From Carya illinoinensis (taxonomy: Eukaryota > Streptophyta > Magnoliopsida > Fagales > Juglandaceae), in contig NC_056764.1 in assembly GCF_018687715.1 (NCBI RefSeq), positions 17,598,501 to 17,662,500 of the forward strand: a stretch of 64,000 nt of DNA, read 5' to 3'. Below, in pieces: positions 9,077-55,714 of this stretch; position 1 is the first letter of the stretch, and every line of letters starts with the position of its first letter. A model generated the notes under the pieces. That model had not been told where the DNA came from, did no database searches, and was given only the letters and a program-made list of their open reading frames with translations. A program made the translations under genes and the position numbers.

Positions 9077-9078
9077 GG

Positions 9079-9090: not shown

Positions 9091-9352
9091 GGTTTGGCTC
9101 TGGGTAAAACCACATGTCGTACCAGAATGTTTTTAAAGTTGTGTTTTAAAAATTATGTTAAGTAAAGTTGCTATTTGATTTGTTTTATTTTTTTGAACTT
9201 GTTTGCTTGTTTTTATTTATTTAGTTATGTTATTGCATGCTGGTTTCTTTTGTTTCTTGCTATGAGGTGTTGGTTTTGGTTTTTTTGGTTTTATGTTGGT
9301 TTTATCTGTTTTTCTTAAAGGGGGTCAAAGGTTGTGTTGTGGCAGGAAAAAA

Positions 9353-10587: not shown

Positions 10588-10683
10588 GTATGGATTTAAT
10601 TTAATTTTATGTTGGATTTGATTTTTGGTGTGCTTTGATTTCTTTGTGTATTTGGATTTCATGGGTTTATGTGTTTGGTTCAG
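10588..10683 (+). other. Possible 96-nt intron between EL3 gag and protease
   Basis: This segment begins GTATGG and ends TTTGGTTCAG, is T-rich, and contains in-frame stops. Flanking coding sequence is continuous if it is removed: the gag-end codons for VIT, then a Gly split across the junction, then RVRLYEFYACTLFDSGAS. Its length is a multiple of three. If retained, translation stops after Gag; if spliced, Gag would be joined to protease-RT. This reading is inference from splice-like ends and frame only. Confidence 0.45.
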
Positions 10684-11234
10684 GGAGAGTCCGTTTATAT
10701 GAGTTTTATGCTTGCACTTTGTTTGATTCGGGTGCTTCACAGTCATTTGTATCTTCCACATTTGCGCGGATGTGTAATTTGGTCACGGAACCTTTGCTGA
10801 AGTCAATGGTAGTGGCTCTACCCAATGGTGAAATGGTGTGGTGTTCCAAAGTTGCTTTGGGATGCCCATTAAATTTTGAATGAAGGTTCTTGGATGCTGA
10901 TTTGGTGGTGTTTAAGCTGTTGGATTTTGATATCATCCTCGAGATGGATTGGCTATACTGATATTCTGCAAGTATTAATTGTAGAAGTCGGATAATTAGC
11001 TTTCAGCTTCCAGCTGGTGATTGTCTGGAATTTACGGGAAGTAAGCTAAAAGAAAAGCCGGTGATTATATCAGCAATTCAAGCAAGAAGAGAGATTGCAT
11101 GGGGAGCGGAAGCATTCTTAGTCCAGATGGTGTCCATGCCATCTGAGAAGAGGTCTTTGGTAGACATTCCAGTTGTGGAAGAATTCCCCGATGTATTTGT
11201 GGATGACTTGCCTGGACTACCCCCTATTTGAGAA
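10684..11234 (+). pseudogene. EL3 protease and linker to RT
   Basis: This is a retroviral-type aspartic protease that would cut the polyprotein. The active site is LFDSGASQSFVS at about 10713-10750, followed by MVVALPNGEMV. A stop at 10881 and another near 10960 interrupt the second half, where the usual D(I/V)ILGMDWL segment reads DIILEMDWLY. The linker to RT includes EEFPDVFVDDLPGLPPI and a stop at about 11229, in place of the conserved Arg. Confidence 0.85.
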
Positions 11235-12156
11235 ATGGAGTTTGTTATAGACTTGGAACCTGGAGCGGCTCCTGTACATAAAGCTCCTTACCGCATGGCA
11301 CCGGCTGAATTAAAAGAGTTGAAGATTCAGTTGCAAGAGCTGGTAGATAAGGGGACGTTCATTCAGCCTAGTACTTCGCCGTGGGGTGCGCCAGTGCTGT
11401 TTGTTAAAAAGAAAGATGGAACCCTCTGTATGTGCATTGATTATCGGGAATTAAATAAGGTGACCATCAAAAATAAATATCCTCTCCCACGGATCGATGA
11501 TTTGTTTGATCAGCTTCAAGGAGCAGCTGTGTTCTCGAAGATAGATTTGAGGTCGGGATACTACCAGTTGAAGATAAGGAACAAGGATGTGCCCAAAACT
11601 GCTTTCAAGTCGAGATATGGGCATTATGAATTTAAGGTGATGCCGTTTGGATTAGCCAATGCCCCTGTTGCTTTCATGGATTTAATGAATCGAGTATTTT
11701 GACCTTATCTGGATTCCTTTGTGGTAGTATTCATTGACGACATTCTGATTTATTCCCGAGATGTTGAAGAGCATGTGTATCATCTTTGTGAAATTGAGAG
11801 AACACCAGTTGTATGCCAAGCTTAGCAAGTGTGAATTCTGGTTGGAGGAAGTCAGATTTCTTGAGCATGTGATTTCCCGAGACGGAGTGGCTGTTGATCC
11901 TAATAAGGTGGAAGCCATTTTGTCATGGCAGCGTTCGACTACAGTGTGCGAGATCCGGAGTTTCTTGGGACTTGCCAGATATTATCGAAGATTTGTGGAG
12001 GGATTTGCTCGCCTATCCGGACCTCTCACAGCTTTGACTCAGAAGAATGCATAATTTGTTTGGTCAGATAAGTGTGAGAGAAGCTTCCAAGAATTGAAAA
12101 ACAAGTTGACAACTGCACCAGTGTTAGCGTTCCCAGAACCGCATAAGCCATTCGTA
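11235..12156 (+). pseudogene. EL3 reverse transcriptase, ending in a truncated RNase H
   Basis: The polymerase begins [20 protein letters not shown] and includes [46 protein letters not shown] and [12 protein letters not shown]. The catalytic FIDDILIYS lies at about 11732-11758. A stop at 11701 and a frameshift near 11760 split it. The thumb and connection follow in a new frame ([34 protein letters not shown]). The RNase H start, APVLAFPEPHKPFVV, is present but breaks off at about 12156, before its first catalytic Asp. Confidence 0.9.
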
Positions 12157-12291
12157 GTCTCTTGGGAGCAACAGTTGAGGTCCAAGACGATACCTTTGGT
12201 TAAGGTAGCATGGGGAGATCCGTTAGCTCAATATTTCTCTTGGGAGCGAGTGGCCGATATGAGGGAGCAGTACCCATACTTGTTTGAGTAA
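12157..12291 (+). pseudogene. EL3 Pol C-terminal tail joined to truncated RNase H
   Basis: The frame from 12094 passes without a break from the RNase H start into SWEQQLRSKTIPLVKVAWGD and then DMREQYPYLFE, ending at a stop near 12291. This second part is the usual C-terminus of plant chromovirus Pol, at the chromodomain end. The RNase H core, all of integrase and most of the chromodomain are therefore deleted at about 12156-12160. The junction is in frame. Confidence 0.8.
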
Positions 12292-12400
12292 AAGACGGTA
12301 CATCTCTTAATCTTGGTCACATGTGGTTTTATGTGGAATCATGTGGTTTGTTTCAAGTTGGTGTTTGATCTTGCAAATTTCGAGGATGAAATTTGTTTTT

Positions 12401-12412
12401 AAGGGGGGAGGA
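12401..12412 (+). promoter_or_regulatory. EL3 polypurine tract
   Basis: AAGGGGGGAGGA directly precedes the TG of the 3' LTR. This is the expected primer for plus-strand DNA synthesis. Confidence 0.9.
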
Positions 12413-14503
12413 TGTGATGACCCGCTTTTACGTGTATTTTCACTGAAGGGTTGTTTTTAATTTAATTAATATAGTGGTTTATTTATTTTAAATTATTGTG
12501 TTTTAAATTGGTTTTTAATTTATTTGATGTTGTATTTAATTTATTTAGTCGTTTTACGATTTTTAATCTCGTTTTCGGCAGATCTGTTTTGGTTTCCGGA
12601 GTGAGGATTGTACCTCATTTCTTTCCTCCATCTTTTCTTTTCTCTTTTCCCCTTTTCTCTTTTTTCTCTTTTCTTTCTTTTTCTTTTTCTTTCTTTTTCC
12701 CTCCCCTTTCCCGTGCGTTTTCCCCCTCCCCGTGCGTTTCTCTCTCTCTCCTCTCCTTCACGCCAAACGTTCCAACCACCCAGACCCACCGCCGCCGGCC
12801 ACCGTGTGCAACACTACCACCACCAATCTCTTCCCCTCCCTCCGGTGAACCACCCCACAAATTTCCACCGCCAACGGAGTCGCCGTTTAGCCGAAAAACC
12901 ATCATCAAGCCGCACAGTTTTAGCCCCGATTTGCCGCCGTTGCTCCACCTCCAGCCACCACCTCTTCACCACTTCATCACTGACTCATTGCTGTCCTAAC
13001 CCACCCGTTTCCGGCCTCAATAAGTCACCGGAACAGTTCCCACAAGCTAGCTTTCCAATTTGGGTATTTTGGCCTTCCTCCGCCGTTTTCGCCGCCACCC
13101 ACGGCCAAACTTCACTTCCCTTAGCTTCATAAACATCCCTAGACCATTCCCTATCAATCTCGAGCTTTGGTTTGCCCCCGTTCAAAAGTGAGTATTTTAC
13201 AACCCACGGCCACAATGAAATTTCACTGTTACGTTGCTTTTCTTCCGTCGTTTGCAACGTCGCAAGCTTTCAAAAAATACCATATAGCGCTGTAAGTATT
13301 TTCTAAACCCTACTTTTAGATTTAAATATATTTTGCTCATACAATAAATATTTTCTGTTGGTTGGCTGATTCTGGATTGAGTCCGATGACTTTAGGGGTT
13401 GGATGGTTTGAGGACGGAGTGCTTGGTTTTTGTTGTTTGTGATTGCTTGGTTATTTGAGCCATGAGGCGTGCGTTACATAATACATACATGTGCATTTTA
13501 ATTAAATTGAGAAAATTCCATTTTATTGGCATAAATGGATTTTGGGAGTGTGTGTCTCACGAGCCCAAGCCGGGATGGGTTATTATCTCGGTGGAACTCC
13601 TCTGGTCACTCGGGAGTGGATAATACTGAGTGACGTCTCCTGGGTTGTCGCAGGGCAACGACCAGATCGCACGATACGGTAACGCTGTCGTGTCGACTCC
13701 GTGGTCCCTAGAGTGGCGGGGACTAGAGGATGGCCTGACCAGGTACGCGCTGGGCGCGAGTCTGGGCATCGCTCGTTTAGGTGTCACATGCGTAGTCGTT
13801 ACTTGCAGTGTGGCACAGAGCCAGGGTGTGTGGATGATCCCTAGGGGAGATCATGGTGCATGCATAATTGGATCGTTTTTATGGTTTTCGGATGCGGGCC
13901 ATTTTCTGGAAAAATGGCGAGGTTTGGCATGAGGCTTTTGATCCATTTTCTGGGAAAATGGTGGTTTGGGCCATTATTTGGGATAATGGCAAGACTTGGT
14001 TTTAAGCGTTATGTTTTTGTGGGCCAAATGGGTTTTTGGCGTGCGTGGAAAAAATAGTTTTACGGGACATGTGCATTGTTTTTTCTTTCATGCATATTGT
14101 TTGAGTTTTATATATTTTTCTAGTGGTGTTTGGATTTTACTTACCTGCGTTACCATTTTTGGTTCCGTAGATTTTGATGCAGGGTTCGAGGAAGAGGAGG
14201 AGGCTGAGCCCGAGGATGCGGCTCCGCTGGAGTTCTGAGTTAAAGTTTAAGCTTTGTTGTTTGGTTTAAAAATATATTTGTGTTTTGTAATATTTCTTTA
14301 CGTATGTTTTAAACAGCTTTGTATTAAATTAAAAAAAAATTCTGGTACTTATTTATTGACTTTGCTATTTGCTGCGTGTTTCTCGTGCACATTCATTGCT
14401 TATGTACAGACTTGGCACTCGTTGATAGGGTGGTGACCCATGATATCATCATCTGGACGTCTCGATTTCCCTGTGCCAGGCGTGGGGATTTGGGGGCTTC
14501 ACA
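12413..14503 (+). mobile_element. EL3 3' LTR
   Basis: It begins TGTGATGACCCGCTTTTACG and ends GGGGGCTTCACA. It matches the left LTR along its whole length, apart from small differences such as a shorter CT-rich block. GTTAA follows at 14504-14508. Confidence 0.93.
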
Positions 14504-14508
14504 GTTAA

Positions 14509-29415: not shown

Positions 29416-31742
29416 TGACTCGTGGTCGAATGTGCTTCCAAGTGTAGAAGTGTCAAGTTGTATCAAGGATAAGTCCAGGATCGTATTCCATAGGGACAAA
29501 GGGTTATCAAAGCGTATATGAGATTTTTGAGTAACAAATGAATCAAGTATGAGAGATGAAAATAAAATTCAAATGCAATGCAAGAAGATAATCGAAGTTG
29601 AAATTAGAGTTTCTAAAACAAACAAATTAACGAACACTTTGGGTTGGGTATGAGACTCTCTTTATTTCGGATTCTAGATAATTTTCTCGATTAACAATCC
29701 AATCAAGGCATTGCTAATCAGAAGATACAAATTTAAACTCAAGTTTTGCAATATTTTCCTAATAGATTCTCTACTTTACTAGTCAAACACACATTAACAA
29801 ACAATTGAGAGAGGCCTTGATAGTTTTCAAGATTTTGTTGTGCCTTACGTCAACAACAAAACAAGAGCAAAAGCCGCAATCTATTTTCAATTTAAATCTG
29901 ACTAGTAACATAGTAAAATCAACAATTAACAACAAAATATTGCATTGATCTAGAATCCAAAACAAATCAAGCTTCGTTCCACAACCCAAGCTTCAAAAAT
30001 TAGCTACACATGATGTTTCTAGCGATAAAAATAAATCTAAGTTGAGTCATGACAAAATCTGAGAAAATATCCGAATGAGATAAATCCTAAAGATGTTGCC
30101 ACTGCCCGCAGGAGAACAATCACTAAAATAAAAACTGAAACGTATATTGCAGAAAATAGAATGAAGAGCAACCTAGAAAAATAAAGCGAAGAAGCAGCCG
30201 AATAAAAATAAAGATACCCTCTGAAATGAAAATGAAATAAAAATAAAACTGCTGCAACACCGAATGAAAATGAAAGAAAGTAATAAACTCCAAATAAAAC
30301 TACTGCACCGAATGAAAATGAAAGAAAATAAAAATCTAAGCTAAGCTACTCTACGAAAAGAAAGAAAGAAAAAGCTAAGAACTAATCAGAAAACTAACAA
30401 CTCCAAAAACTAAGCTAGGTTCTGCTGTAGCTGAATGTAAAAATGAAAGAAACAATGAAAACAAAGCTTAGCTACTAAATCAAAAGAAAAGAAAATAAAA
30501 TAACACTTAAAGCTCAAAACAAACTGTTGTAGCCGAATGAAAGACCAAAAGAAAACAGCAGAAAATTTGCTGCTAGCGTCCAAAACAGAAAGCAAGAATG
30601 AAAAAAATAAAACCAACCCCAGCCCCTTCAGTAAAACGAAAAGAAAAAGAATAAGAACTCAGCTCCCCTCTAGTCTAAACGAAAAGTAAAGTAATAATGT
30701 ATGAAAACACAAAAACTAGCTGCCCCTTACATGAACGAACCAGCCGTATAAAAACAGGTTGAAAAATAAAGAGCCAAAGGTCAGCCCGTCTGTCTGTGTG
30801 ATCCCATGTGATCTCCTGCTGCTGCTTTCCGTGTAGCTGTCTTCAACGTGATCTTCATGTGTGCATTTATCTCCTGCTGCACGTGTATTGCATGTGTGAG
30901 TGTTCTGCAACATGCAGGTTGTGTGCTGTCCGAATGCTTTCTGTATGTTTACTGGTCTGCATGTTTACTGCATGTGTGTTGCACTTTTCTGCATGTGTGA
31001 ACTGGTCCGAATGATGCTGCATGTGCTAAGTCCATTTCTTCTCCTGTTGCTCTGCATCTGCATATGTGCATGTGTGCATGTTGGTCTGCATGTGTTCGAA
31101 TGGTCTGCATGTGCATTGTGTTCTGCAACATGCAGGTTGTGTGCTGTCCGAATGCTTTCTTTGCACTTTTTTGCATGTGTGAGTCTTCTTCTCTTGCTGT
31201 AGTAGCTGCTACACATGTGAGTTTTCTGCAAGTGTTGTGTTTGTATGAGTGCTGTCTGAGTGATCTGTATGTGCATTGTGTGAGTCCACTGCATGGTCCG
31301 AATGGTCTGCATGTGCATTGTGTGAGTCCACTGCATGGTCCGAATGGTTGCATGTGCATTGTGTGAGTCCATTGCATGGTCCGAATGGTTGCATGTTTAC
31401 ATTTTTCTGCATGTGTGCATGTGATCCTGCATGTGTCCGAATGAGTGCATTTGATCTCTATTAGATGAGATTCCATAAAACTATAGTTAACTTCTCTATT
31501 TTCTCATAGGTCCCATTCTTTTTTTTTTCTTTCCATAAATGCCCTACAATATATAAATGAATTGATATTATAGTTTAAGTATTTCAAGGGCAAATATGAG
31601 ACTTTGATGTGCAAAAATATTGGCATCAATTAATTTGACATTCAATATTAGAATTTGATGCATAATTAAGTGTTTAATTCTTATTTGATAAAATAAATCA
31701 CTCATTTAAACAACTTAATTATGCAATTCCAACCCTTTATCA
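29416..31742 (-). mobile_element. EL10: solo LTR of the EL15 family
   Basis: This aligns end to end with the EL15 LTR (for example GTGCTTCCAAGTGTAGAAGT near both left ends, and similar AACTTAAT(T/C)ATGCA at the right). Neither a primer-binding site nor a polypurine tract adjoins it. The flanks are ATGAT (29411-29415) and ATCAT (31743-31747), a 4-of-5 match to a target duplication. It splits the EL9 minus arm, whose two halves rejoin sensibly. The 30800-31450 part is rich in TGCATGTG and CCGAATGG units; the long reading frames there on both strands come from this repetition. Confidence 0.8.
31275..31400. repeat. 42-bp tandem repeat, three copies, in EL10
   Basis: Units of about 42 bp are built on CTGCATGGTCCGAATGGT and GCATGTGCATTGTGTGAG. 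Three successive copies differ by few bases and a small deletion. Confidence 0.75.
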
Positions 31743-32438: not shown

Positions 32439-33368
32439 ATGCATAGATATAGAGACGAGTTAGGTAGATTTGCAAGGAGACTTGAAGTAGACACTAATAC
32501 TCTCTTTGATAATCTGTTTGACACACCATCTAATTTTGATACACATTCTATTTCATCATTTTCTTCATCTAACATGAGTTTGCACGAAGATCAACCAAGG
32601 ACTCTACATGAGTAGCTTTACCCTACACGCATAGCAACATCATTATGCATTATATTTCCACCTAATAGTTCTCCAATAGATTTCAAACCAAGTGTGATAC
32701 AACTTCTCCCTACCTTTTCATGGTTTGGAAAGAGGAAATCCATATGTGCATATTAGGGAGTTTGAAGAGGCTGTTGCTACATTTCATGCTTAACTTGGCA
32801 CTATAGGTGCTATTCGACTTAAGTTCTTTCCCTTCTCACTAAAGGATAAGGCAAAAAGTTGGATTTATTTATTGAGACCACAGTCGATTGGGTCATGGGA
32901 TGAGATGACCCAAATTTTTTTCAATAAATACTTTCCTCATTGTAAGATGAATGCTTTGGAAAGACAAATCTCAACTTTTACACAAAAGGATAATGAGACT
33001 TTGTATCAAGCATGGGAATGTTTTAAAGAGTTGCTTGACTTGTGTCCCCATCTTGGTTATGAAAGCTGGAATCTAGTTAACTATTTTTACGAAGGTCTTA
33101 CTCCTATAGAGCATCAATTTGTTGAAATGATGTGTAATGGTGAGTTTTTATAGAAGGATCTCGATGAGGCAATAGAGTATTTAAATGAACTTGCAGAAAA
33201 AACTCACACTTGGACAGGACCAAATGCTTTTGACAGTACCAATCGAGCATGCTCTAATCAAACTCATTATAGTGGAGGTATCATCATCTCAGAGAAGAAG
33301 ATAACTTGAAAGCAAGGATAGAGAGCCTAACTAGAGAATTAGAGGCATTAAAGATGAAGGAAACTATG
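32439..33368 (+). pseudogene. EL11 Gag, N-terminal part
   Basis: I start at ATG 32439 (MHRYRDELGRFARRLEVD), which matches MHRFRDALGRFAWRP of EL13. The capsid domain continues with stops and a frameshift near 32720-32790. It reopens at 32872-33153 (RPQSIGSWDEMTQIFFNKYF, QISTFTQKDNETLYQAWECF). Another stop is at 33151. The last codons before the EL12 insertion are from the coiled segment ESLTRELEALKMKETM. The downstream half is at 53993-54516. Confidence 0.85.
33364..33368. other. EL12 target-site duplication, left copy (CTATG)
   Basis: CTATG precedes the TGTGATATCC start of EL12 and is repeated at 53993-53997 after its TTACA end. The ATG inside it is an in-frame codon of the EL11 gag on both sides. 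Confidence 0.9.
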
Positions 33369-37132: not shown

Positions 37133-39580
37133 TTCTTAGGAAACTCCTCAAATTTCTGTTGCCAAGCTTGTGTGCCATAATCCTGAGTTTTATAAAAAAA
37201 AAAAAGCACAAATATCAATAACATCAGATGAATCACTAATAGTATCAAACTCAGAATTCACAAGGGGATATTCAAGGGGATCAAAATTATGAGTTGTGAG
37301 AACTCCCTTGTCTATAAGTGCGTCAATCATGTACGTTTGGTGGCACTCATCATCTGTTGGCTATTTCTCAATATGGAAAATGTTGACCTCCATGGTCATG
37401 TTTCCAAAAGATAGCTTCATCAACCCATTCTTGCAATTTATAAGTGCATTAGCCGTAGTAAGGAAAGGTCTACCTAATATGAGAGGAACCTTAGAGTTTG
37501 ACTCAACAACTGATTAAGTGTCCAAAATTAAGAAATCAACAGGATAATAAAACTTGTCAATTTGGATCAAAACATCCTCAACTATCCCTCTCGGTTTCTT
37601 AACTAAACGATCAGCCAACTGAAGTACAATAGAAGTAGGCTTAATTTCACACAAACCAAGCTACAAATAAATGGAATAAGGCATCAAATTAACACTAACT
37701 CCTAGATCTAGCAAGGCTTGCCCAAACTCATGATTTCCAATATTACATGCAATGGTTGGACAACCAGGATCCTTGTTCTTAGGAGGAATTCGCTGTTCAG
37801 TTAGAGCAATAACTTGCTCTGTCAGAAATGTTGTATTCTTAACATGGTGCTTCCTCTTAACTATACACAAATCTTTAAGAACTTTTGCGTAAGTAGGAAC
37901 TTGTTTAATAACATGCAAAAGATGAAGGTTAATCTTTACCTGCTTGAGGTTCTCCAAGATTTCATTACTAGAATCCAAAGTTCGCATACCAGATTTTAAA
38001 GCTTGAGGAAATGGTACCTTAATTCGACTCTTGATTGCGTTGGCTTCCTTGGGGAACTCGGTACTATCATTGCTTTGTTCCTCTTCAACATCCTTTGGTT
38101 TATCAATTGTTTGGATGTGTAAGAACTTACCACTTCTTGTCACAATGGCATTGACTTCTTTCAAATTTTTTTGTGCCATATGTTGACCTTGGGGTGTGGA
38201 CTGAGCTTGAGAAGGAAACTTGCCACGCTCATTCACACTCAAGGCGCTCATTATCTTGGATATATGACTTTTTATCTCTTTGTTTTCTTCAACAACCTGC
38301 ATAATCAAAGATTCAAACTTTTGATTAGTTTTACTCTGTGCCTCAATAAAAGCATGTAAAGTATCTTCTAAGGGGCTCCTAGAAGATGAATGTGCAGGAT
38401 ATGATCTAGAGGGTTGTGCAGGCTGCTGGTTTTCAGATTTCCAACTAAAATTGGGGTGATTACGCCACCCAGGATTGTAGGTATCAGAGAAAGGTGCAAT
38501 AGGCTTCATGTACATACCTGAGGCATTACATTGTTCCTCATACATCCCTCTCATCTCAGCAAATGTGGGACACTCTTGGGCAAGGTGATCTATCCCACCA
38601 CACACAAAACATGGTCCAAAAGACTCTGCATGATTAGCCACGTGTATTGGCTTTAAGTCTTTATTCTTCAACACCTCTAGCTCCCTAGTGAGTATCTCAA
38701 CCTTAGCCTTTAGGTTATCCCCTTCCCTGAGATGGTAAATTCCACTACCATATAGGTTTCCTGTAGGTCATGATCTATTTGTGCTCTCAGTAGCACTAGG
38801 TCCAGTCCAAGTGTGAGCTTTTTCAGCAAGCTCATTAAGGTATTTTATGGCATCATCAGGATCTTTCTGCAAAAACTCACCATTACACATCATCTCCACA
38901 AATTGACGCTCTCTAGGTGTAAGTCCCTCATAAAAATAGCTCACTAAGCGCCAATTCTCATACCCATGGTGAGGACACATACTCAATAGCTCCTTAAATC
39001 TCTCCCAAGACTGATACAAAGTCTCACTGTCCTTTTGGACAAAGGTGGAGATTTGCCTTTTTAAAGCATTGGTCTTATGTTGGGGAAAGTATTTATTAAA
39101 GAAGACCTGAGTCATCTCATTCCATGATCTAATAGATCATGGTCTCAATGAGTATAGTCATCTCTTAGCTCTATCCTTCAAAGAGAAAGGAAAGAACTTA
39201 AGTCTCACAATGTCATCAGTTGCATTTTGACTATGAAAAGTCGCAACTACTTCTTCAAACTCCCTAATGTGCACATATGGATTTTCATTTTCCAAGCCAT
39301 GAAAAGTAGGGAGTAACTGTATCATCCCTGTTTTAAAATCCAATTGGAGAATATTAGCTGGAAACATGATGCATGATGGTGTGGCTATGCGTGTAGGGTG
39401 GAGGTAATCCTGAAGGGTCCTAGTGGGTTGATCTTCGTGTTCACTCATTTTCTCAGAATTAGAAGAATTATCAAACAAATGATCAAAAAAATTAAACTCT
39501 GACTCTAACACAGGTCTCCAAGCAAACCGACCTAAGGCGTCTCTAAACCTGTGCATGCACGGTAGAGAAAAACGCAACAC
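37133..39580 (-). pseudogene. EL13 Gag-protease
   Basis: The Gag probably starts at the internal Met of MHRFRDALGRFAWRP (about 39556). The capsid domain includes LHPTRIATPSCIMFP, FPFSLKDRAKR and MTQVFFNKYFPQHKTNALKR. Three TGA stops interrupt one frame: two at about 39125-39160 and one at 38766. The knuckle is CFVCGGIDHLAQEC (CX2CX4HX4C, intact). The linker includes TYNPGWRNHPNFSWK and RSPLEDTLHAFIEAQ. Protease begins with ALLDLGVSVNLMPYSIYL, then a stop at 37661, and runs with further stops to about 37133 (LGRPFLTTANALINCKNG). It is the best preserved Gag of this branch in the window. Confidence 0.88.
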
Positions 39581-41067: not shown

Positions 41068-43290
41068 TATAGAAGATATTTTCAGTATTATTAGATAAGC
41101 TTGTTTATAATGTAGCACAATTGTAATATTTTAATGAACTCTAAAAATATTATAATTGTGGATAAATATTTATATTAAATATTTTAGTTTTTTTAAAATA
41201 TGAAGAGGTCTAATTTTATGTTGAAAACTCTTATTTAATTTAAATGGTTTATCCTCTTTGAGTAATTAACGATCTTTATCATTTTAAATAATGATAAAGA
41301 TATATTATTTTATAAACTTTAATTTGTAAAATAATATTCTATCTAAATTTCGCTCAGTATTTTATCTAAGTGTTTTATTTCAAATAAAACAATTATGTGT
41401 TTTCAAATCAGTGTTTAAACTCATCGTTAGATTGTTTTGAGGATCCCGAAGTGAAGAACTTAGATTAAATACCCAGACCCCTCTCTTTTCATCCTTATTT
41501 TTTCTCTTTTTCCTTTTCTTCTTTCTCTCTCTTCTCTCTCTTTCCAAGCCCCTCTCTTTGGTTCCTCCACCGTGCATGTGCTTCAAGTTCCCAGCTGGCG
41601 CCACCTCCAGCCGCCGTGCCCCACCTCCCACACCGGCATGATCTTGCCCTACTGGCGACCAATACCTCATCGGTGGTGAGCTTTATCGGCAGCCACTCCT
41701 CCCTCTTTCTCCTCCCAAGTAAATGGGTTTTACACCCATTTTCTACTCCTTGAGCCACCATACACGGCCAAAATGACCACCAAGCACCACCAATGGATTC
41801 ACCACGTCATGGGCTTCCTCCCCATGTCCTTCTTTCCCTCTAACTCTCTCTTTTGCTCCGATGGTTCTCCATAGCTAGAGTTTCGGTTGCACCACCGTAC
41901 GCTGCCGTACATGGCTACCCATGATGTTTCACCACCACGACCTCGTTCCTCTCATCACCACGACCTCTCCCAACAAATTTCATGGCCAACAGAGCTGTAC
42001 ACAGCTCTCACTCTCTGTCACTCTCCAAGTTCAAGTGGCCGATCCACCATCGTGAACTACCGTATGGCCACCACCTTGCCACCACAGCTCCACCACATCT
42101 TCCTCTACCTCCCCCTAGCTTTCCATGAAGTTCTATGGCCTTTATCCACCCCAAGTAAGCTCCCACCTTTTCGGATTTACTGTTCACAGCATGATGCCGC
42201 CACCATTGACCACCACGAGGCCATCATGAGCCTTTCCAAGACCACACCTAGCTATTCTTAGCCCAAACCACCACTTTACATGGTGGACAACCAACGTACA
42301 CGGTGTTACCACCACATACGCTCCTCTGAAGCTTAATCGTGACGAGTAGCAAGCGACGCACGGGTTATCTTGTCTATGGTATAACCCTCTATCTCTAATT
42401 ATTTACATTTAAAGTAGTTGATTGGTTGGATTATAGATTGTGTAGTTAGTATTTGTGGAGTTCACTGCATAGTTGTGAAGTGAAGTGCAGTTGTGAAGTG
42501 TTGAGCTTGATTGTGTAGCATTGTGGACTGTGCTGTGAAGTATGGGCGTGAGATGGATGCTGTAGTTGTAATATGGAGTAAAGTGTGAAGAGAGTACGTG
42601 TGGAAGTACTTTGTGTAGTGCAGCGATGCATCGTGTGACGTGCGCTATAGTGATGTGTGGTGTAGAATGAAGGGAGTACGCGTGAAGTGTACTCCATGTT
42701 GTATGGCGATGAAACATGGCGTCGTGATAATAAGTGTCGTAGCGAAAGGAGTACGTGTGCCACGTACTCCATGTCACGTAGTGATGCACTGTGAGACGTT
42801 TATCATAGTTATGTTTGTTGTAGTGTGGATGGAAGGGAGTTCACGTGAGTGTACTCTGTGCTAGGTTGTGATACACCGGATGGCGTGTCATGAAGGGTTA
42901 GATGGTGTAGCAGAGAAGCATGGAGTGTATTGTGTAACATCGGGAAACTATGTAACAGTGTCCCGAAGCAATGGTGAGGTGGTTGTAGTCCAAGGTAATG
43001 GATGTTGCCTTGAGACTGACGTGTGGCTGAAAGTAAGTGTGAAGCAGTGAAAAGGTATCAGAGACCGTAGCGGAAGCACGATGGACCTCGTGCTGCTATT
43101 CAAGAATTTGTCTTGAGCTGCATAATGTGACAAAGGCGCATTTATGGATGCAGTCCTCTTGTTATGTGACCGGAACTATATAACAGTGTCCTGAAGCAAT
43201 GGTCATATGGCCTGTAGTCCGAGGTAACGGGTGTCACCTTGTGGTTGACTATGGCTAAGAGTATAAAGAAGGGGTGGAAAAGTATCAGAG
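41068..43290 (+). mobile_element. EL12 middle part: AT-rich, CT-rich and tandemly repeated blocks
   Basis: Positions 41068-41460 match EL16 at about 56730-57100 (for example GATATTTTCAGT and AGATTAAATACCC in both). A CT-rich block lies at 41480-41560. Positions 41560-42400 code for His/Pro-rich frames, which I regard as non-coding because similar blocks occur in the EL3 LTRs. From 42450 to 43290 there are diverged tandem units: one built on GGAGTACGYGTG at about 42660-42850, and a 230-bp duplication built on AACAGTGTCC(C/T)GAAGCAATGG at 42953 and 43182. Confidence 0.65.
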
Positions 43291-44047
43291 TGTGATACCC
43301 CGTTTTTACGTGTATTTTCACTGAAGGAGTATTTTAATTTAATTAATATATTGGTCCTTTTATTTTAAATTATTACATTTTAATTGGTTTTATTTTAATT
43401 TGATGTGGTGTTTAATTTATTTTAGTCATTTTATGGTTTTTAAAATTGTTTTTGTCGGATTAGTTTTTGGACTCCGGAGGTGAGGACTGGACCTCATTTT
43501 CTTTCTCCATCTTTTCTTTTCTCTTTTTCTTTTTTCCCTTTTTCCTTTTTTCTTTCTTTTCTTCTTTCTTTCTTTTCTTCTTCTTCCTTTCCTTTCCTCC
43601 CGCGCGCAGCTCTTCTCTCCCTCTCTCTGTCGCCGATTGCTTCGGCCACCTAGACCACTGTCATCCGGCCGACGTAGCTGACACCGCCCCCATAGGAGCC
43701 AGAGTGTGCAGATGATCCCTAGGGGAGATCATGGTGCATGCAATAATTGGATCGGGTTTTTGATTTTGGATATAGGCCATTTTCTAGGAAAATGGTGAGG
43801 TTATGTTTGAGGCTTTGTGATCCATTTTTGGGGAAAATGGTGGTTTCTTGTTTTGGGCCATTATCTGGGATAATGGCAAGGACTAGTTTTAAAGGTTACG
43901 TTTTGGGCCAAAATGAGATTTTGGCGTGCGTGGAAAAATGTGGTTTTATGGGTTATGTGCATTTGCATTCTTTCATGCATATTGTTCGAGTTTAATATGT
44001 TTTTATCTTGTGGTGTTTGGATCTTTACTTACCTACGGCACCATTTT
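43291..44047 (+). mobile_element. EL14: partial LTR of the EL3 family
   Basis: It starts TGTGATACCCCGTTTTTACG and follows the EL3 LTR through the CT-rich block to about 43700. It then jumps to the GAGATCATGGTGCATGCA block and follows the EL3 LTR to TTTACTTACCTACGGCACCA. At 44047 it stops, and satellite sequence begins. The LTR 3' end (GGGGGC..CACA) is absent, so no duplication can be identified. Confidence 0.8.
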
Positions 44048-44498
44048 GGAATGACTTTCCTTGTATTGAAATGTGGTGTATCAAGTCTAATCATCTAATT
44101 CACTCAAAGAACAATGCAAAACAAAACAACAAGAGTAATAAAGCCTATATAAAAAAGGAGAGAAAGAATTAAAATTGAAATTTAGTTTGAAAGATGGTTT
44201 AAAGATGATTAACCACATGTAAGTTGATGAATGCCCTTAACTCCAGTTACGAGCCTAACCAAGGTTAGATAAGGGGCGTATGGCACAACTTGGGCAAGAG
44301 GGAAACCAATGGTATGGCATCTGCGGGCTAAAATTTGAAGAATGAAAGAAAAAACAGGTTTCTTAGAGTCAATTAGTCCAACGCTAGAACAGAGTTAGGA
44401 CGGTAAAGGGGGGATGTATTTGATGAGATTTCCCGTGAGAAAACGGTGTAAACGGCATAGGCTATAGTCCGATTCGTTGCAATGCGCAAAGGGGTGCC

Positions 44499-46614
44499 TG
44501 ACTCAGTTTCGAATGTGCTTCCAAGTGTAGAAGTGTCAAATTGTATTAAGGATAAGTCCAGAATCGTATTCCACAGGGACAATGGGTTATCAAAGCGTAT
44601 AGGAGATTTGTGAGTAACAAATGAATCAAGTATGAGTGATGAAAATAAAATTCAAATGCAATGAAAAAAAAAAAAGATAATCGAAGTTAAAATAAAAGTT
44701 TCTTAAGAAAAACAAATTAACGAACACTTGGGTTGGGTATGAGACTCTCTTTATTTCGGATTCTAGATAATTTTCTCGATTAACAATCCAATCAAGGCAT
44801 TGCTAATCGGAAGATACAAATTTAAGCTTAAGTTTTGCAATATTTTCCTAATGGATTTTCTATTTTACTAGCCGAACACACATTAACAAACAATCGAGAG
44901 AAGCCTTGATAATTTTCAAACTTTTGTTGTGCCTTACGTCAACAACAAAATAAGAGCAAGAGCTTCAATCTATTTTCAATTTAAATCCAACTAGTAATAT
45001 AGTGAAATCAACAATCAATCACAAAATATTGCATCAAACTAGAACCTAAAATAAATTAAATCTCATTCCACAACCCAAGTTTAAGAAATTAGTTGCACAT
45101 GATATTTCTAGCAATAAAAATTAATCTAAGTTGAACCATGATAAAATCTAAGAGAAAATTTCCAAACAAAATAAATCCTAGAGATGCTGCCACTGCCCGT
45201 AGGAAAACAGACACTAAGCTGAAAACTGAAATATAAATTGAGAAAATAAAATGAAGAACAAACCTCCAAAGAAATGAAGAAACAACCGAATGGAACTTAA
45301 AAGAAAGGTCTTAAGAGAAATAAAATAAAATAAAAAACAATCAACACTGCTGTCCAACCAACTGGAAATAAACCAAGATCACCGATCAAATAAACAAAAA
45401 AAAACTGAAAGAAAGAATTAAAACTCTGCTGCAGCTCTATGAAACCGAAAAGAAAAGAGAGAAAATAAAACTCTCAAAACTGCCTAACGTCCCAACGAAA
45501 AGCAAGAAAAAAAACTTCAAGCTAAGCTACTCCACTGTCTTAAACGAAAAAAGAAAGAAAGAAGGTCTACCTCTGTAGCCGAATGAATATGCAAGAAACA
45601 ATGAAACAAGTTTAAGCTACTGCTGTAGCCGAATGAAAATGAAAAAAAAAAAACAATGAAAACTAAATAAAACTGGCTGCCCAGCGTCTGAAAACTAACA
45701 ACTCCAAAACTAAAATGAAAGATGAGTCCTTGGTCTGGAAAACTCCTCCAGCCCGAACCCCCTTGAAATGAAGCAACAAGCAAGATAAATAAACTGCCCC
45801 CGTTTGAAACGAAAAAGGAAAGAAAGAAAAAAATAACTCCAAAAGCTACTCTGCTGTTGCTGCACGTTCATCTGTGAGTTCCAGCATCTTGCTGTCTTCA
45901 ACTTCCTTCCATCTCTCAGCTTCACATGCCAAAAGCTTCCAGCAGCACATAACTGATCTGCTGCACGTCCAGCTGCTGCATGTGTGCATGGGAATGCTTT
46001 GTTGGTCTGAATGATGCTGTCTGCTGTAACGTCCAAGTGATCTGCATGTGTCCGAATGCTTTCTGCACTTTTCTGCATGTGTGCATGTGTGAGTCCACTG
46101 CATGGTTGCATTTTCTGCATGTGTGTTGTGTCCAACGTGATGATGCTTGTGTGCTCCTGCTGTTGGCTGTCCGAGTGCCTTTCTGCTGCTGTGTTCCTGC
46201 TGCATGTGTGCTGTCCATGTGGTCCGAATGGTCTGCATTGTTTGCATGTGCATTGTGCTTTTCCTTGCTGCAGCAGCTGCTGCAGATCCGAGTGAGTGGG
46301 TGTGCTTTTAGCTTGTGTGAGTTTGTGTTGCAACGTGCTGTCCAAGTGGTCCGAATGGTCTGCATTGTTTGCTGTGTGCATTTTTCTGCATGTGTATTGC
46401 CCAAACTACCCTTGTTATGAGAGGAATAAAAAATGGAATATTTATTGTCATGTGAAGTTATTGTATTATAAATCTTTTTAAGTACAAAAATACCAGAATT
46501 TATCAATTGACTCAAGTATTGTGATCTATTGCATAATTAAGTACTTAAATCATTTTTTTATTAAACAATTTATTCACTTAAGTAACTTAATCATGCAGTT
46601 TGAGCGCTTCATCA
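44499..46614 (-). mobile_element. EL15 3' LTR
   Basis: On the minus strand it starts TGATGAAGCGC after the tract GTTGGGGGGTG (46615-46625) and ends GCACATTCGAAACTGAGTCA. It contains A-rich blocks (45290-45700) and TGCATGTG/CCGAATGG-rich repeats (45960-46390) like EL10. The overlapping frames in this repeat block are not credible genes. Confidence 0.88.
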
Positions 46615-47192
46615 CACCCCCCAACTAGCTTTTTGCTAGAGTCTTAGCAAATAAAGTGAATGAATTCATGTGAAGGTGAGTTTTCCAACTACAATTCCAA
46701 AAGAAGTTCGAGGATCACATGCCATGAAATAACTTGTTGAGTTTAAGAACACTGGAGATAGATTAATATGAATTTTGTATCAACTGAGAGATTTATACAC
46801 CATTTAGTTAATCAACCAAGGGAATTACATGTAACAAAGCTTGCTTTCTTTCAAGTGCATGGAAATGGGGTTAGAATTCCAAGATCGACTACCAAGAGAC
46901 ATTAACAGTTTGAATCACAACAACCAATCTGAGAAAACCACATGGTCTTACTCTAATTCAAAACCATTGTAGTGGCGGCTTTCACGCTATTACACTTTGA
47001 AAGGCGCCTACTTCTTCTTCTTTTTTTTTTTTTGTAAGGGCCCCGTTAATAGGCAGCCTTTTCCACTACACAAATGTAATTTTTATTTATTTATTTATTT
47101 TTTTATGTTTTTAGATTTCCTAGTGGGGGAATTGGACCTATGAATGTGCGCCTATCCACACTTTTACAAGTCAGCCCTTACCACTAGTCAGC

Positions 47193-47637
47193 CCTTTCTG
47201 CTGCTGTGTTCCTGCTGCATGTGTGCTGTCCATGTGGTCCGAATCGTCTGCATTGTTTGCATGTGCATTGTGCTTTTCCTTGCTGCAGCAGCTGCTGCAG
47301 ATCCGAGTGAGTGGGTGTGCTTTTAGCATGTGTGAGTTTGTGTTGCAACGTGCTGTCCAAGTGGTCCGAATGGTCTGCATTGTTTGCTGTTTTGCTGTGT
47401 GCATTTTTCTGCATGTGTATTGCCCAAACTACCCTTGTTATGAGAGGAATAAAAAATGGAATATTTATTGTCATGTGAAGTTATTGTATTATAAATCTTT
47501 TTAAGCACAAAAATACCAGAATTTATCAATTGACTCAAGTATTGTGATCTATTGCATAATTAAGAACTTAAATTATTTTTTTATTAAACAATTTATTCAC
47601 TTAAGTAACTTAATCATGCAGTTTTAGCGCTTCATCA
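47193..47637 (-). mobile_element. EL15 truncated 5' LTR
   Basis: It matches 46178-46614 almost perfectly. The break at about 47193 lies in the sequence CCTTTCTG, shared by both sides of the junction with GTCAGCCCTT repeated just before it. This suggests a microhomology-mediated deletion. Confidence 0.85.
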
Positions 47638-50600
47638 GTGCCACTAGTTCGCGATTGGCGGTGACTTTGGTGTTGGAATGACTTTCCTTGTATTGAAATG
47701 TGGTGGATCCAAGTCCAATATTCTATTCCGCTCTAAGAATGATTGGAAACAACAATAAAAGTATTAATGTCCATATAAAAATGGTGGGAAAGAATTAAGA
47801 AGGAAATCAATCTATAAACATAGTTTAGAGATGACTAATCACTTGTAAGTTGATTAATGACTTAAATTCCGGTTACAAGCTTCACCAAAGCTAGATAAGG
47901 GGAGTATGGCACGTCTTGGGCTTGAGGGAAACCTATCGTATGGCAGCTGTGGCTTACAATTGGAGGAATGAAGGACAAAAAGGGTTTCTTTGAGTCAATT
48001 CGTCCATTGCAAGAATTGTGTTTCGACAGTTAAGGTGGGATGCATTTGCTACTATTTTACTTAAGAAAATGGTGTAAACGGCATAGGGTCGAGTCGGATT
48101 AGCTGCAATGCACATCGAGGGGCACCTAGGTGGTGATTGGCAGTGACCCGGGCGTTGGAATGAATTTTCTTGTATTGAAATGTGGTGTATCAAGTCTAAT
48201 CGTCTAATTCACTCAAAAAACGATGCAAAACAAAACAATAAGAGTAATAAAGCCCATATAAAAAAGGAAAGAAAGAATTAAAATTGAAATTTAGATTCGA
48301 AGATGGTTTAAAGATGATTAACCACTTGTAAGGCGATGAATGCCCTTAACTCCAGTTACGAGCTTAACCAAGGCTAGATAAGGGGCGTATGGCACATCTT
48401 GGCCATGAGGGAAACCAATGGTATGGCATATGTGGGCTAAAATTTGAAGATTGCAAGAAAAGCCAGGTTTCTTAGGTCAATTGATCCAATGCTAGAACTG
48501 AGTTACGACGGTAAATGTGGGATGTATTTGATGAGATTTTCCATGAGAAAACGGTGTAAACGGCATAGGCTATAGTCCGATTCATTGCAATGCACAAAGG
48601 GGTGCACCTAGCTCACGATTCGCGGGGACTTTGGCATTGGAAACACTTTCCTTGCATTGAAATGTGGTGGATCCAAGTCCAATATTCTATTCCGCTCTAA
48701 GAATGATGGGAAAAAACAATAAAATTATTAATGTCCATATAACAATGGTGGGAAAGAATTAAAAAGGAAATCAATCTATAAACATGGTTAGAGATGACTA
48801 ATCGCTTGTAAGTTGATTAATGACCTTAACTTCGGTTACAAGCTTAACCAAAGCAAGATAAGGGGAGTATGGCACGTCTTGGGCTTGAGGGAAACCGATC
48901 GTATGGCATCTGTGGATTACAATTGGAAGAATGAAGGAAAAGAAGGCTTTGTTTGAGTCAATTCATCCAATGCTCTAACTGAATTTCGACGGTTATGGTG
49001 GGATGCATTTGCTGAGATTTCCGTTGAGAAAATGGTGTAAATGCTATAGGGTACATTCCGATTAGTTGCAATGCACATCGAGGGCCTCCTAGGTGGCAAT
49101 TGGCAGTGATCTCGGCGTTGGAATGACTTTCCTTGTATTGAAATGTGGTGTATCAAGTCTAATCATCTAATTCACTCAAAGAACGATGCAAAACAAAACA
49201 ATAAGAGTAATAAAGCCCATATAAAAAAGGAAAGAAAGAATTAAAATTGAAATTTAGATTGGAAGATGGTTTAAAGATGATTAACCACATGTAAGTTGAT
49301 GAATGCCCTTAACTCCAGTTACGAGCTTAACCAAGGTTAGATAAGGGGCGTATGGCACAACTTGGGCAAGAGGGAAACCAATGGTATGGCATCTGCGGGC
49401 TAATATTTGAAGAATGAAAGAAAAGACAGGTTTCTTAGAGTCAATTAGTCCAACGCTAGAACAGAGTTACGACGGTAAAGGGGGGATGTATTTGGTGAGA
49501 TTTCCCGTGAGAAAACGGTGTAAATGGCATAGGCTATAGTCCGATTCGTTGCAATGAGCAAAGGGGTGCCACTAGTTCACGATTGGCGGTGACTTTGGTG
49601 TTGGAATGACTTTCCCTGTTTTGAAATGTGGTGGATCCAAGTCCAATATTCTATTCCGCTCTAAGAATGATTGGAAACACCAATAAAAGTATTAATGTCC
49701 ATATAAAAATGGTGGGAAAGAATTAACAAGGAAATCAATCTATAAACATGGTTTTGAGGTGACTAATCACTTGTAAGTTGATTAATGAGTTGAATTCCGG
49801 TTTCAAGCTTAACAAAGCAAGATAAGGGGAGTATGGCACGTCTTGGGCTTGAGGGAAACCGATCGTATGGGAGCTGTGGTTTACGATTGGAGGAATGAAC
49901 GACAAAAAGGGTTTCTTTGAGGCAATTCGTCCATTGCAAGAATTGCGTTTCGACGGTTAAGGTGGGATGCATTTGCTACTATTTTACTTAAGAAAATGGT
50001 GTAAACGGTATAAGGTAGAGTCCAACTAGCTGCAATGCACATCAAGGGGCACCTAGGTGGTGATTGGCAGTGACCTGGGCGTTGGAATGAATTTCCTTGT
50101 TTTGAAATGTGGTGTATCTAGTCTAATCGTCTAATTCACTCAGAAAACGATGCAAAACAAAACAATAAGAGTAATAAAGCCTATACAAAAAAGGAGAGAA
50201 AGAATTAAACTTGAAATTTAGTTTGGAAGATGGTTTAAAGGTGATTAACCACTTGTAAGTTGATGAATGCCCTTAACTCCAGTTACGAGCTTAACCAAGG
50301 CTACATAAGGGGTGTATGGCACATCTTGGCCATGAGGGAAACCAATGGTATGGCATCTACGGGCTAAAATTCTAAGAATGAAAGAAAAGATAGGTTTCTT
50401 AGAGTTAATTGATCCAATGCTAGAACTGAGTTACGACGGTAAATGTGGGACGTATTTGATGAGATTTCACGTGGGAAAACAGTGTAAACGGCACAGGCTA
50501 TAGTCCGATTCGTTGCAATGCGCAAAGGGGTGCCTCTAGTTCGTGATTGGCGGTGACTTTGGCGTTGGAATGACTTTCCTGGTATTGAAATGTGGTGGAT

Positions 50601-53359
50601 CCAAGTCCAATTTTCAATTGCGCCGTAAGAATAATGGGAAACAACAATAAAAGTATTAACGTCCATATTAAAATGGTGGGAATGACTTAAGAAGGAAATC
50701 AATCCATAAAACATGGTTTAGAGATGACTAATCACTTGTAAGTTGATTAATGACCTGAGTTCCGGTTACAAACTTAACCAAAGCAAGATAAGGGGAGTAT
50801 GGCACGTCTTGGGCTTGAGGAAAACCGATCGTATGGCAGCTGTGGTTTACAATTGGAAGAACGAAGGACAAAAAGGGTTTCGTTGAGTCAATTCGTCCGT
50901 TGCAAGAATTGCATTTCGACGGTTAAGGTGGGATGCATTGGCTACTATTTTACTTAAGAAAATGGTGTAAACGGCGTAGGGTAGAGTTTGATTAGCTGCA
51001 ATGCACATCGAGGGCACCTAGGTGGCGATTGGCAGTGACCTGGACGTTGGAATGACTTTCCCTGTATTGAAATGCAGTGTATCAAGTCTAATCGTCTAAT
51101 TCACTCAAAGAACGATGCAAAACAAAACAATAAGAGTAATAACGCCCATATAAAAAGGGAGATAAAGAATTGAAATTGAAATTTAGTTTGGAAGATGTTT
51201 TAAAGATGATTAACCACTTGTAAGTCGATCAATGCCCTTAACTCCAGTTACGAGCTTAACCAAGGCTACATAAGGGGCGTATGGCACATCTTGGCCATGA
51301 GGGAAACCACTGGTATGGCATCTGCGTGCTAAAATTTGAAGAATGAAAGAAAAGACAGGTTTCTTAGAGTCAATTGATCCAATGCTAGAACTGAGTTACG
51401 ACGGTAAATGCGGGATGTATTTGATGAGATTTCCCGTGAGAAAACGGTGTAAACGGCATAGGCTATAGTCCGATTCGTTGCAATGCGCAAAGGAGTGCCT
51501 CTAGTTCGCGATTGGCGGTGACTTTGGTGTTGGAATGACTTTCCTTGTATTGAAATGTGGTGGATCCAAGTCCAATATTCTATTCCGCTCTAAGAATGAT
51601 TGGAAACAACAATAAAAGTATTAATGTCCATATAAAAACGGTGGGAAAGAATTAAAAAGGAAATCAATCTATAAACATGGTTGAGAGATGACTAATCGCT
51701 TGTAAGTTGATTAATGACCTTAACTTCGGTTACAAGCTTAACCAAAGCAAGATAAGGGGAGTATGGCACATCTTGGGCTTGAGGGAAACCGATCGTATGA
51801 CATCTGTGGATTACAATTGGGAAGAATGAAGGAAAAGAAGCCTTTGTTTGAGTCAATTCATCTAATGCTAGAACTGAATTTCGACGGCTATGGTGGGATG
51901 CATTTTCTGAGATTTCCGTTGAGAAAATGGTGTAAAAGCTATAGGGTACATTCCGATTAGTTGCAATGCACATCGAGGGGCATCTAGGTGGCGATTGGCA
52001 GTGATCTCAGCGTTGGAATGACTTTCGTTGTATTGAAATGTGGTGTATCAAGTCTAATCATCTAATTCACTCAAAGAACGATGCAAAACAAAACAATAAG
52101 AGCAATAAAGCCTATATAAAAAAGGAGAGAAATAATTAAAATTGAAATTTAGTTTGAAAGATGGTTTAAAGATGATTAACCACTTTTAAGTTGATGAATG
52201 CCCTTAACTCCAGTTACGAGCTTAACCAAGGCTAGATAAGGGGCGTATGGCACAACTCGGGCAAGAGGAGAAACAATGGTATGGCATCTGTGAGCTAAAA
52301 TTTGAAGAATGAAAGAAAAGACAGGTTTCTTAGAGTCAATTAGTCCAATGCTAGAATAGAGTTACGACGGTAAAGGGGGGATGTATTTGATTAGATTTCC
52401 CTTGAGAAAACGGTGTAAACGGCATAGGCTATAGTCCAATTCATTGCAATGCGCAAAAGGGTGCCTCTAGTTCGCGATTGGCGGTGACTTTGGTGTTGGA
52501 ATGACTTTCCTTGTATTGAAATCTGGTGGATCCAAGTCCAATATTCTATTCCACTCTAAGAATGATTGGAAACAACAATAAAAGTATTAATGTCCACATA
52601 AAAACGGTGGGAAAGAATTAAGAAGGAAATCAATCTATAAACATGGTTTAGAGATGACTAATCACTTGTAAGTTGATTAATGACTTGAATTCCAGTTACA
52701 AGCTTAACCAAAGCAAGATAAGGGGAGTATGGCACGTCTTGGGCTTGAGGGAAACCTATCGTATGGCAGCTGTGGCTTACAATTGGAGGAATGAAGGACA
52801 AAAAGGGTTTCTTTGAGTCAATTCGTCCATTGCAAGAATTGCATTTCAACAGTTAAGGTGGGATGCATTTGCTACTATTTTACTTAAGAAAATGGTGTAA
52901 ACGGCATAGGGTCGAGTCGGATTAGCTGCAATGCACATCGAGGGGCACCTAGGTGGCGATTGGCAGTGACCTGGGCGTTGGAATGAATTTCCTTGTATTG
53001 AAATGTGGTGTATCAGGTCTAATCGTCTAATTCAATCAAACAACGATGCAAAACAAAACAATAAGACTAATAAAGCCCATATAAAAAAGGAGAGAAAGAA
53101 TTAAAATTGAAATTTAGTTTGGAAGATGGTTTAAAGATGATTAACCACTCGTAAGGCGATGAATGCCCTTAACTCCAGTTATGAGCTTAACCAAGGCTAG
53201 ATAAGGGGCATATGGCACATCTTGGCCATGAGGGAAACCAATGGTATGGCATTTGTGGCCTAAGACTCTAAGAATGAAAGAAAAGACAGGTTTCTTAAGG
53301 TGAATTGATATTTATGAATGAATGGAATGCATGAATGTAAGTAAGATAGGATGAATGCA

Positions 53360-53443
53360 TGCATGTATGTGTGTGTATGTATGTACGTACGTATGTATGT
53401 ATGTATGTATGTATGTATGTATGTATGTATGTATGTATGTATG
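53360..53443. repeat. (ATGT)n microsatellite
   Basis: It is a run of ATGT units with some ACGT and GTGT variants at the end of the satellite array. A minus-strand Tyr-Ile-His-Thr frame across it is an artefact of the repeat. Confidence 0.9.
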
Positions 53444-53992
53444 CATGAACGTATGTAAAAGAACGAATGCATGAAAAGATTCTTTAAGCATTGAAGGCAG
53501 CGATGTGTGGGGAACTGTTTTAAAGAAGAAAGCATGTTTTAAAGAAAAACCCTACCTCGCAACGTTTTAAAATGAAAAGAAAGACGTATGCATGCTAAGT
53601 ACGATATGTATTTATGGAATGATAACTGCATGACTGAAAAGCTATGTTATTATATTTTTGACTATATGAAGTAATGCTTACAAGTCATTTACTCATTTTA
53701 GTTTTTATATGTGCCCTCCCAGGCACAAGATGAGCATGATAGATTAGGACAGGCACAGCCCAAGGGGAAGAGCACGAAGGCCTAGGCAAGATGTTTTATA
53801 TGGGAAAATTTATTTACGAAATGTAATGTTTTCAGCTGAAATCTTTAATTAAGAAAAATGAATTTTATCTATGACATGAAGTCTTTTATATCCTGGCATG
53901 AATGAAAAAGGAATTGAAAAGGAATCGTAATTCTCATCAATTTTTTTTAAAAATCGATATGAAAAGGACCCACCATAAGGACGGGCGTTACA
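53444..53992 (+). mobile_element. EL12 3' end
   Basis: About 550 bp of AT-rich sequence ends GGACGGGCGTTACA and abuts the CTATG duplication. It contains CCCTCCCAGGCACAAGATGA but no coding domain. Confidence 0.7.
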
Positions 53993-54516: not shown

Positions 54517-55714
54517 ACATGTTTTATTGGGATGATCCTTACTTATTTAAATATTGCCTGGACCAAATTATGAGACATTGTATTCCTAACGATGAGATAG
54601 TAAGTGTTCTTAACTTCTGTCATTCACATGCATGTGTAGGCCATTTTTCTATCAAAAAGACTGCTGCAAAAAGTTTGCAATGTGAATTTTATTGGCCTAC
54701 CTTGTTTAGGGACACTAACAATTTTTGTCTTTCATGTGAGAGATGTCAAAAGTTAGGTGCTTTATCTAGTCATAATATGATGCCTCTAAACCCAAGTTTG
54801 ACTATTAAAGTATTTGATTGTTAAGGTATAGATTTTATGGGACCATTCCCTCTTTCTTTTGGCTACCTTTATATTCTTCTGGCTGTTGACAATGCGTCTA
54901 AGTGGGTTGAAGCTGTACCATGCAGAAGCAATGATCATGCTACTGTGGTAAAATTTTTGGAAGAAAATATTTTATCTCGATTTGGTACACCACGGGTGAA
55001 CATTAGTGATCAAGGCACCCACTTTTGTAATCGTTCTTTTGCATTGATGCGTAGGTATGGTGTGGTATACAAGGTTTCTATGGCATACCACCCACAGACC
55101 AATGGACAAATAGAGCTTACAAACAGGGAAATCAAACAAATTTTGGAGAAAACAGTTAATCTCGATTGCAAGGATTGGTCCTTACGCCTATTTGATGCAC
55201 TTTGGGCATAACGTACAGCTTTTAAATCTCCCATTGGAATGTCCCTTTATCAATTTTTTTTTGGAAAACTTTTTCATTTACCTACAGAACTAGAACATAA
55301 GGCTTACTGGGATATCAAGGCTCTTAACTTTCATTTAAGTGAGGCAGGTAAGCAAACAAAACTTTAGTTAACAGAGTTGGAAGAGTTAAGGAACGATGCC
55401 TATGACAACTCTAGAATCTATAAGGAGAAGATGAAAGCTTTCCATACTAGACGTATTGTGAGAAAACAATTGAGCCTCACCAGCGGGTCAACTTGTATGA
55501 CTCTAGGCTACATCTCCATCCAGGTAAGCTACGGTCTAGTTGGACCAGTCCCTTTATCATGAAACATGTTTTTGAGAATGGAGTTATAGAGGTTGAAGTT
55601 CCAAAGGATGGGCGTCTATTTAAGGTCAATGGACAGCATTTGAAGCCACTTGTGGAGCCCTTGAATCCTGCAAAGGATAACACTCTTCTTGTAGACCATG
55701 TTTATGAGACTTAG
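54517..55714 (+). pseudogene. EL11 integrase
   Basis: Its zinc domain shows His, His, Cys, Cys in FCHSHACVGHFS and CLSCERCQKLG. The catalytic core starts after one stop (54822) with GIDFMGPFPLSFGYLYI (first Asp). ISDQGTHFCNRS holds the second Asp and PQTNGQIELTNREI the Glu. A stop at 55209 precedes RTAFKSPIGMS. The C-terminal domain is split by a frameshift near 55470, but its end is open to a stop at 55714 (HPGKLRSSWTSPFIM, KVNGQHLKPLVEP). All three catalytic acidic residues survive although the protein does not. Confidence 0.88.

Follow-up and report, generated by a model that had tools for sequence, protein, structure and literature searches.

Positions 44047-53307 of the 64-kb stretch of DNA analysed here (the window) are occupied by 13 tandemly arranged monomers with a length of 481-483 bp. 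They belong to two types, B and A, which alternate from a B at the start to a B at the end. The array is a dimeric higher-order repeat in which a 965-bp AB dimer was the amplified unit. We consider it most likely to be a fragment of an old satellite-type family in which homogenisation has ended; that a plant repeat of satellite type, built on a dimeric 965-bp AB unit of higher order, survives here as a short relic has, in our estimate, a probability of about 0.72. An earlier note on this DNA, made from the letters alone, had proposed a higher-order repeat, which is correct for the 965-bp AB dimer, where identity, repeat scores and the clustering of A and B agree. Every one of the 13 monomer positions it gave falls on the same monomer phase, and the strict B, A alternation it described holds throughout the 13 monomers. 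The layout is listed below, with p and q as subtypes of A and a and b as subtypes of B.

44047..53307, no strand: tandem array of 13 monomers strictly alternating B, A; 12.7 copies, spanning about 6.1 kb when the insert is not counted
44047..44498, + strand: first 452 bp of monomer 1 (B, subtype a); the empty site is 483 bp
47643..47673, + strand: last 31 bp of monomer 1, beyond the insert
47674..48637, + strand: dimer 1, A (p) 47674-48155 and B (b) 48156-48637
48638..49601, + strand: dimer 2, A (q) 48638-49118 and B (a) 49119-49601
49602..50565, + strand: dimer 3, A (p) 49602-50082 and B (b) 50083-50565
50566..51530, + strand: dimer 4, A (p) 50566-51047 and B (b) 51048-51530
51531..52496, + strand: dimer 5, A (q) 51531-52013 and B (a) 52014-52496
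52497..53307, + strand: dimer 6, A (p) 52497-52978 and B (b) 52979-53307, the latter (monomer 13) cut after about 329 bp

Computed over shared alignment columns, pairwise identities were 72.7-78.2% between A and B monomers (42 pairs), 86.2-97.1% among A copies and 89.4-97.1% among B copies. The A-B values never reach those of copies of one subtype (p-p 90.6-97.1%, b-b 90.6-93.3%), an overlap that the earlier note had named as evidence against itself. Whole dimers are 88.8-95.6% identical to one another, far above the identity of A to B. Using Tandem Repeats Finder (TRF; periods up to 2000 bp) on the uninterrupted part of the array, we obtained a score of 9265 at a period of 964-965 bp (89% matches) and of 6283 at 483 bp (75% matches); for the whole array minus the insert the scores were 10043 at the dimer period and 6939 at the monomer period. 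A stood apart from B in 200/200 bootstraps and with a FastTree support of 1.000. Since the identity classes are of this kind and the TRF score at 964-965 bp is well above that at 483 bp, the AB dimer is the unit that was amplified. In the part of PMC4053949 available to us, higher-order repeats are recognised by a longer period with higher identity and TRF score and by A and B clustering apart; the array shows all three features, namely multimer identity, TRF score and separate A and B groups in the tree. By the same part of that source, 76 of 171 species have higher-order repeats, and one of its examples is an AB dimer in Sorghum. Such two-part repeats are common, and the array is an ordinary one.

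Monomer 1 starts at 44047 and monomer 2 at 47674, 3627 bp further on. The earlier note had claimed a spacing of 481-483 bp throughout, which holds elsewhere but not from 44051 to 47678, where the same 3627 bp include an insert and a 5-bp target duplication. The insert, which the note overlooked, is a derivative of a long terminal repeat (LTR) retrotransposon that splits monomer 1.

44499..47637, probably - strand: LTR-retrotransposon derivative with deletions, 3139 bp, inserted in monomer 1
44494..44498, no strand: target-site duplication GTGCC, left copy
47638..47642, no strand: target-site duplication GTGCC, right copy

One LTR occupies 44499-46614 of it, a remnant follows from 46615 to about 47192, and an incomplete second LTR extends from about 47193 to 47637; the insert begins with TGACTCAG and ends with CTTCATCA, and so has TG...CA termini. 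A polypurine-tract-like run of G adjoining the LTR suggests that the element lies on the minus strand. With the insert removed, monomer 1 is 483 bp long and in phase, and the array is therefore older than the insertion. A diverged relative of the inserted LTR lies at 29426-31742 in the window (best piece 86.0% identical over 835 bp); it contains a 41-bp tandem repeat at 31269-31396 (3.1 copies, 97%).

The subtype strings that the earlier note had read occur on the + strand of the window only in the monomers to which it had assigned them (a 3/3, b 4/4, p 4/4 and q 2/2, the last two with both of their strings). The four subtypes are real groups, b the least firmly. Thirty-one fixed sites separate p from q, compared with five for the next best two-versus-four split of the A copies, and each of the two formed a clade in 200/200 bootstraps. 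The division of B is softer: a and b differ at nine fixed sites, a was recovered in 193/200 bootstraps and b in only 143/200, b separated with a support of 0.789 in an unrooted FastTree tree, and a-b identity (89.4-93.0%) overlaps that within b (90.6-93.3%). Two alternative divisions of the B copies reach an equal or higher number of fixed sites (monomers 3 and 13 together 12, monomers 7 and 13 together 9, both counts being inflated by the shortening of monomer 13), and monomers 3 and 13, which lie inside b, were grouped in 123/200 bootstraps. The subtypes claimed earlier thus all stand, p and q strongly, with the a/b boundary less sharp than that between p and q. We also looked for a gene conversion tract from B into q. 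Sites at which p differs while q equals B number 24 of 47, and the longest run of them is five, a length reached by 0.564 of 10000 permutations and hence not above chance.

In all six A-B pairs, b comes after p and a comes after q. The earlier note had concluded from this that linked dimers of two kinds are arranged in blocks. The array is compatible with such an arrangement, and no p-a or q-b pair occurs among the six pairs of the A-B frame, but six pairs do not demonstrate it: given four p, two q, four b and two a, perfect linkage would arise by chance with a probability of 1/15 (simple arithmetic). Mantel tests of the distances among A monomers against those among the B monomers that follow gave r = 0.40, a value that 77 of 720 permutations equalled or exceeded; for the reverse, B-A frame the figures were r = 0.47 and 50 of 720. 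Taken together, the data do no more than suggest linkage. Read by A subtype, the dimers run P Q P P Q P, as a unit of three dimers could produce, yet identity at a lag of three dimers is not raised, as a block arrangement would lead one to expect. Same-type copies at this lag (A 92.1-95.2%, B 91.5-94.0%) are no more alike than those at lags 1, 2 and 5 (A 90.6-97.1%, B 90.6-93.3%), and a 2.9-kb three-dimer unit lacks support. The first and last dimers resemble each other most (95.6%).

Neighbouring dimers are 89.0-91.6% identical, and mean dimer identity is 89.8% at lag 1, 90.7% at lag 2, 93.2% at lag 3, 89.5% at lag 4 and 95.6% at lag 5 (one pair). Identity therefore does not decay over distance, and nothing points to local homogenisation in recent times. 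Between the insert's two LTR pieces there are 6 differences in 437 sites (1.4%), which is less than the divergence of the closest dimer pair (4.4%) or of the closest monomer pairs (2.9%). Because the LTR pieces are closer to each other than any two dimers are, the last exchanges among the array copies would, on a common clock, predate the insertion.

From these relations we infer an order of events, a mechanism of amplification and a loss of homogenisation. An ancestral monomer of about 482 bp would have been duplicated and its two copies would have diverged to about 76% identity, after which the AB pair may have been amplified as a unit through unequal exchange or a process of the rolling-circle type. 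The A copies and, less clearly, the B copies would have split into the interspersed subtypes p/q and a/b. Copying probably then slowed or stopped, because the dimers have drifted 4-11% apart and neighbours are no more alike than distant copies. The retrotransposon would have entered monomer 1 later, and the ends of the array may have been lost by rearrangement. What is left probably has no present function beyond that of heterochromatin-type repeat DNA. Three points weigh against a satellite relic with this history. The comparison of ages uses 437 LTR sites only and assumes equal rates and no gene conversion; subtypes p and q could owe their origin to exchange between A and B; and the term satellite, which implies abundance and long arrays, is applied here on the strength of one array, with a larger genomic family presumed.

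The DNA of the window has the look of plant DNA and is rich in retrotransposons, with Pfam matches to fragments of gag, integrase and reverse transcriptase, and the array is a fragment among them. Its flanks contain the following features.

43291..44046, + strand: cut-off LTR with an internal deletion, left flank, of the family of the LTR pair 6951-9077 / 12412-14504
53351..53457, + strand: (ATGT)n microsatellite, 27 copies, 44 bp past the right edge of the array
54825..55211, + strand: degenerate retrotransposon to the right of the array, fragment of its integrase (rve)

This setting bears on the possibility that the array consists of tandem repeats that arose in a retrotransposon, within an LTR or untranslated region, and were then expanded, as described for Ogre of Lathyrus sativus. 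The left edge of the array falls within an LTR that belongs to the 6951-9077 family, ends there at a point corresponding to about 8733 in the intact copy and meets the array at TTTTGG, a motif close to both partners. To the right of the array there are remnants of retrotransposon coding sequence, and an origin of satellites from retrotransposons is documented in the part of PMC7004042 available to us. The fuller LTRs of the same family at 6951-9077 and 12412-14504, however, are both without the monomer, and the remaining 350 bp or so of LTR expected after the break were not found right of the array. From the right edge to about 54037 there is no likeness to other parts of the window (pieces of at least 60 bp, E 1e-8). 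Likeness begins at about 54037 with the region 38138-38611 of a gag-like open reading frame (ORF), at 76.8%, and the stretch up to about 53990 looks, judged by eye, like the end of another LTR. On this evidence we regard an origin within a retrotransposon as unlikely.

The element whose LTRs resemble the left flank spans 6951-14504. Its LTRs (6951-9077 and 12412-14504) are 91.7% identical, its internal part, of only about 3.3 kb, contains gag and a partial reverse transcriptase, and TGGTATCAGAG at 9079 is what we take to be its primer-site-like motif. A 21-bp tandem repeat at 9462-9650 (9 copies, 80%) overlaps an ORF with a gag match. Just left of the left-flank LTR, a direct repeat of about 118 bp (76%) occupies 42946-43063 and 43174-43290. 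A protein search with the gag-like ORF at 37661-38767 returned 893 proteins, and among the 120 matches listed were Olea, Juglans, Carya, Morus and others. The best E-value among those listed belongs to Olea (63% over 100% of the query); among the named hits listed, identity is highest for Carya, at 87% over 47%, and for Juglans, at 81% and 79% over 57%, with others lower. This permits no more than a guess that the plant is a walnut relative.

A satellite relic in retrotransposon-rich DNA also has to be set against a live centromeric satellite with higher-order organisation, of which the array would be a part or an edge. As far as PMC4053949 was available to us, many plants and animals have higher-order repeats, dimers included, among their candidate centromere repeats. 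The array, however, is only about 6.1 kb long, its adjacent dimers are 89.0-91.6% identical, its last monomer is shortened and its first is broken by a retrotransposon; and if, as we can only guess, the plant is a walnut relative, the part of PMC6431679 at hand describes the centromeres there as a 12.5-kb Gypsy element in clusters, with satellite DNA making up 0.03% of the assemblies. We consider a live centromeric satellite highly improbable. The hint of a centromere in the earlier note likewise finds no support in the window, given the length of the array, a best dimer pair of 95.6%, neighbours as diverged as they are and degenerate retrotransposons all around. Very doubtful, too, is the wider proposal of an undescribed 965-bp satellite, genome-wide and with co-inherited pb and qa dimers, that would mark ancient or present (peri)centromeres in a lineage of woody eudicots perhaps close to the walnut family. 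A unique stretch of 965 bp that was duplicated in tandem at this locus alone, and has no family in other parts of the genome, would agree with the finding that a comparison of two dimers with the remaining 64-kb window gave no match at E 0.01, but the two levels of divergence (A/B and p/q) and the interspersion of subtypes suggest, without deciding the matter, a longer history, and we give this explanation very little credence.

Searches for further structure or function in the array returned little. Self-comparison of the p and b consensus revealed no shorter repeats, for instance a threefold unit of about 160 bp, inside the monomer. The sole ORF of at least 110 amino acids in the array (117 amino acids, 50364-50717, minus strand) had no Pfam match in a search that took 10 of the 54 ORFs listed for the window, and Rfam at the gathering threshold gave no match inside the array; on these results we rejected a coding or RNA function. 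Two exact patterns for CENP-B-box-like strings were absent from the + strand of the window. One exact pattern each, run against bacterial and archaeal genome contigs and against viral contigs, gave 0 matches, which plant DNA would lead one to expect and which has no bearing on plants. The repeat is not named in the literature on 482/483-bp satellites, higher-order repeats, Juglans and Fagales satellites, so far as parts of it were available as text, in which sequence is not searchable.

At its gathering threshold Rfam matches the window three times, always with snoR71 (RF00097): at 640-743 (+), 32951-33059 (-) and 38961-39068 (+). Each match is antisense within a gag-type ORF. Two of these ORFs, 582-1277 (-) and 38768-39136 (-), match Pfam Retrotrans_gag, and the third, 32794-33153 (+), was assigned through DNA 75% identical to the region of the latter. 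The snoR71 model thus seems to match antisense gag.

The sequence may represent an unnamed satellite family and could serve as an entry in a repeat library or as a cytogenetic marker. Its ordered events, as we propose them (amplification of a dimer, divergence, entry of a retrotransposon and truncation), would make it a small example of the decay of a tandem array. It opens no new question.

The higher-order repeats of primate alpha satellite consist of diverged monomers held in a fixed order within a larger unit whose copies are more alike. The array resembles them in exactly this respect and differs in having no larger homogenised unit and no exact CENP-B-box-like string on the + strand. In Lathyrus sativus, as described in the accessible part of PMC7004042, two analysed satellites form long arrays and the other nine come from tandem arrays inside LTR elements. 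The likeness to that system is a short tandem array in retrotransposon-rich DNA, whereas the arrays there have a fixed place downstream of the Ogre gag-pol and here no fixed position in an element is shown. The dimeric AB repeats that PMC4053949, in the part available, reports for example from Sorghum bicolor have monomers of 171-175 bp, unlike the 482-bp monomers, short array and 4-11% diverged copies found here; in both, A and B alternate, were amplified together and cluster apart, and the longer period scores higher.

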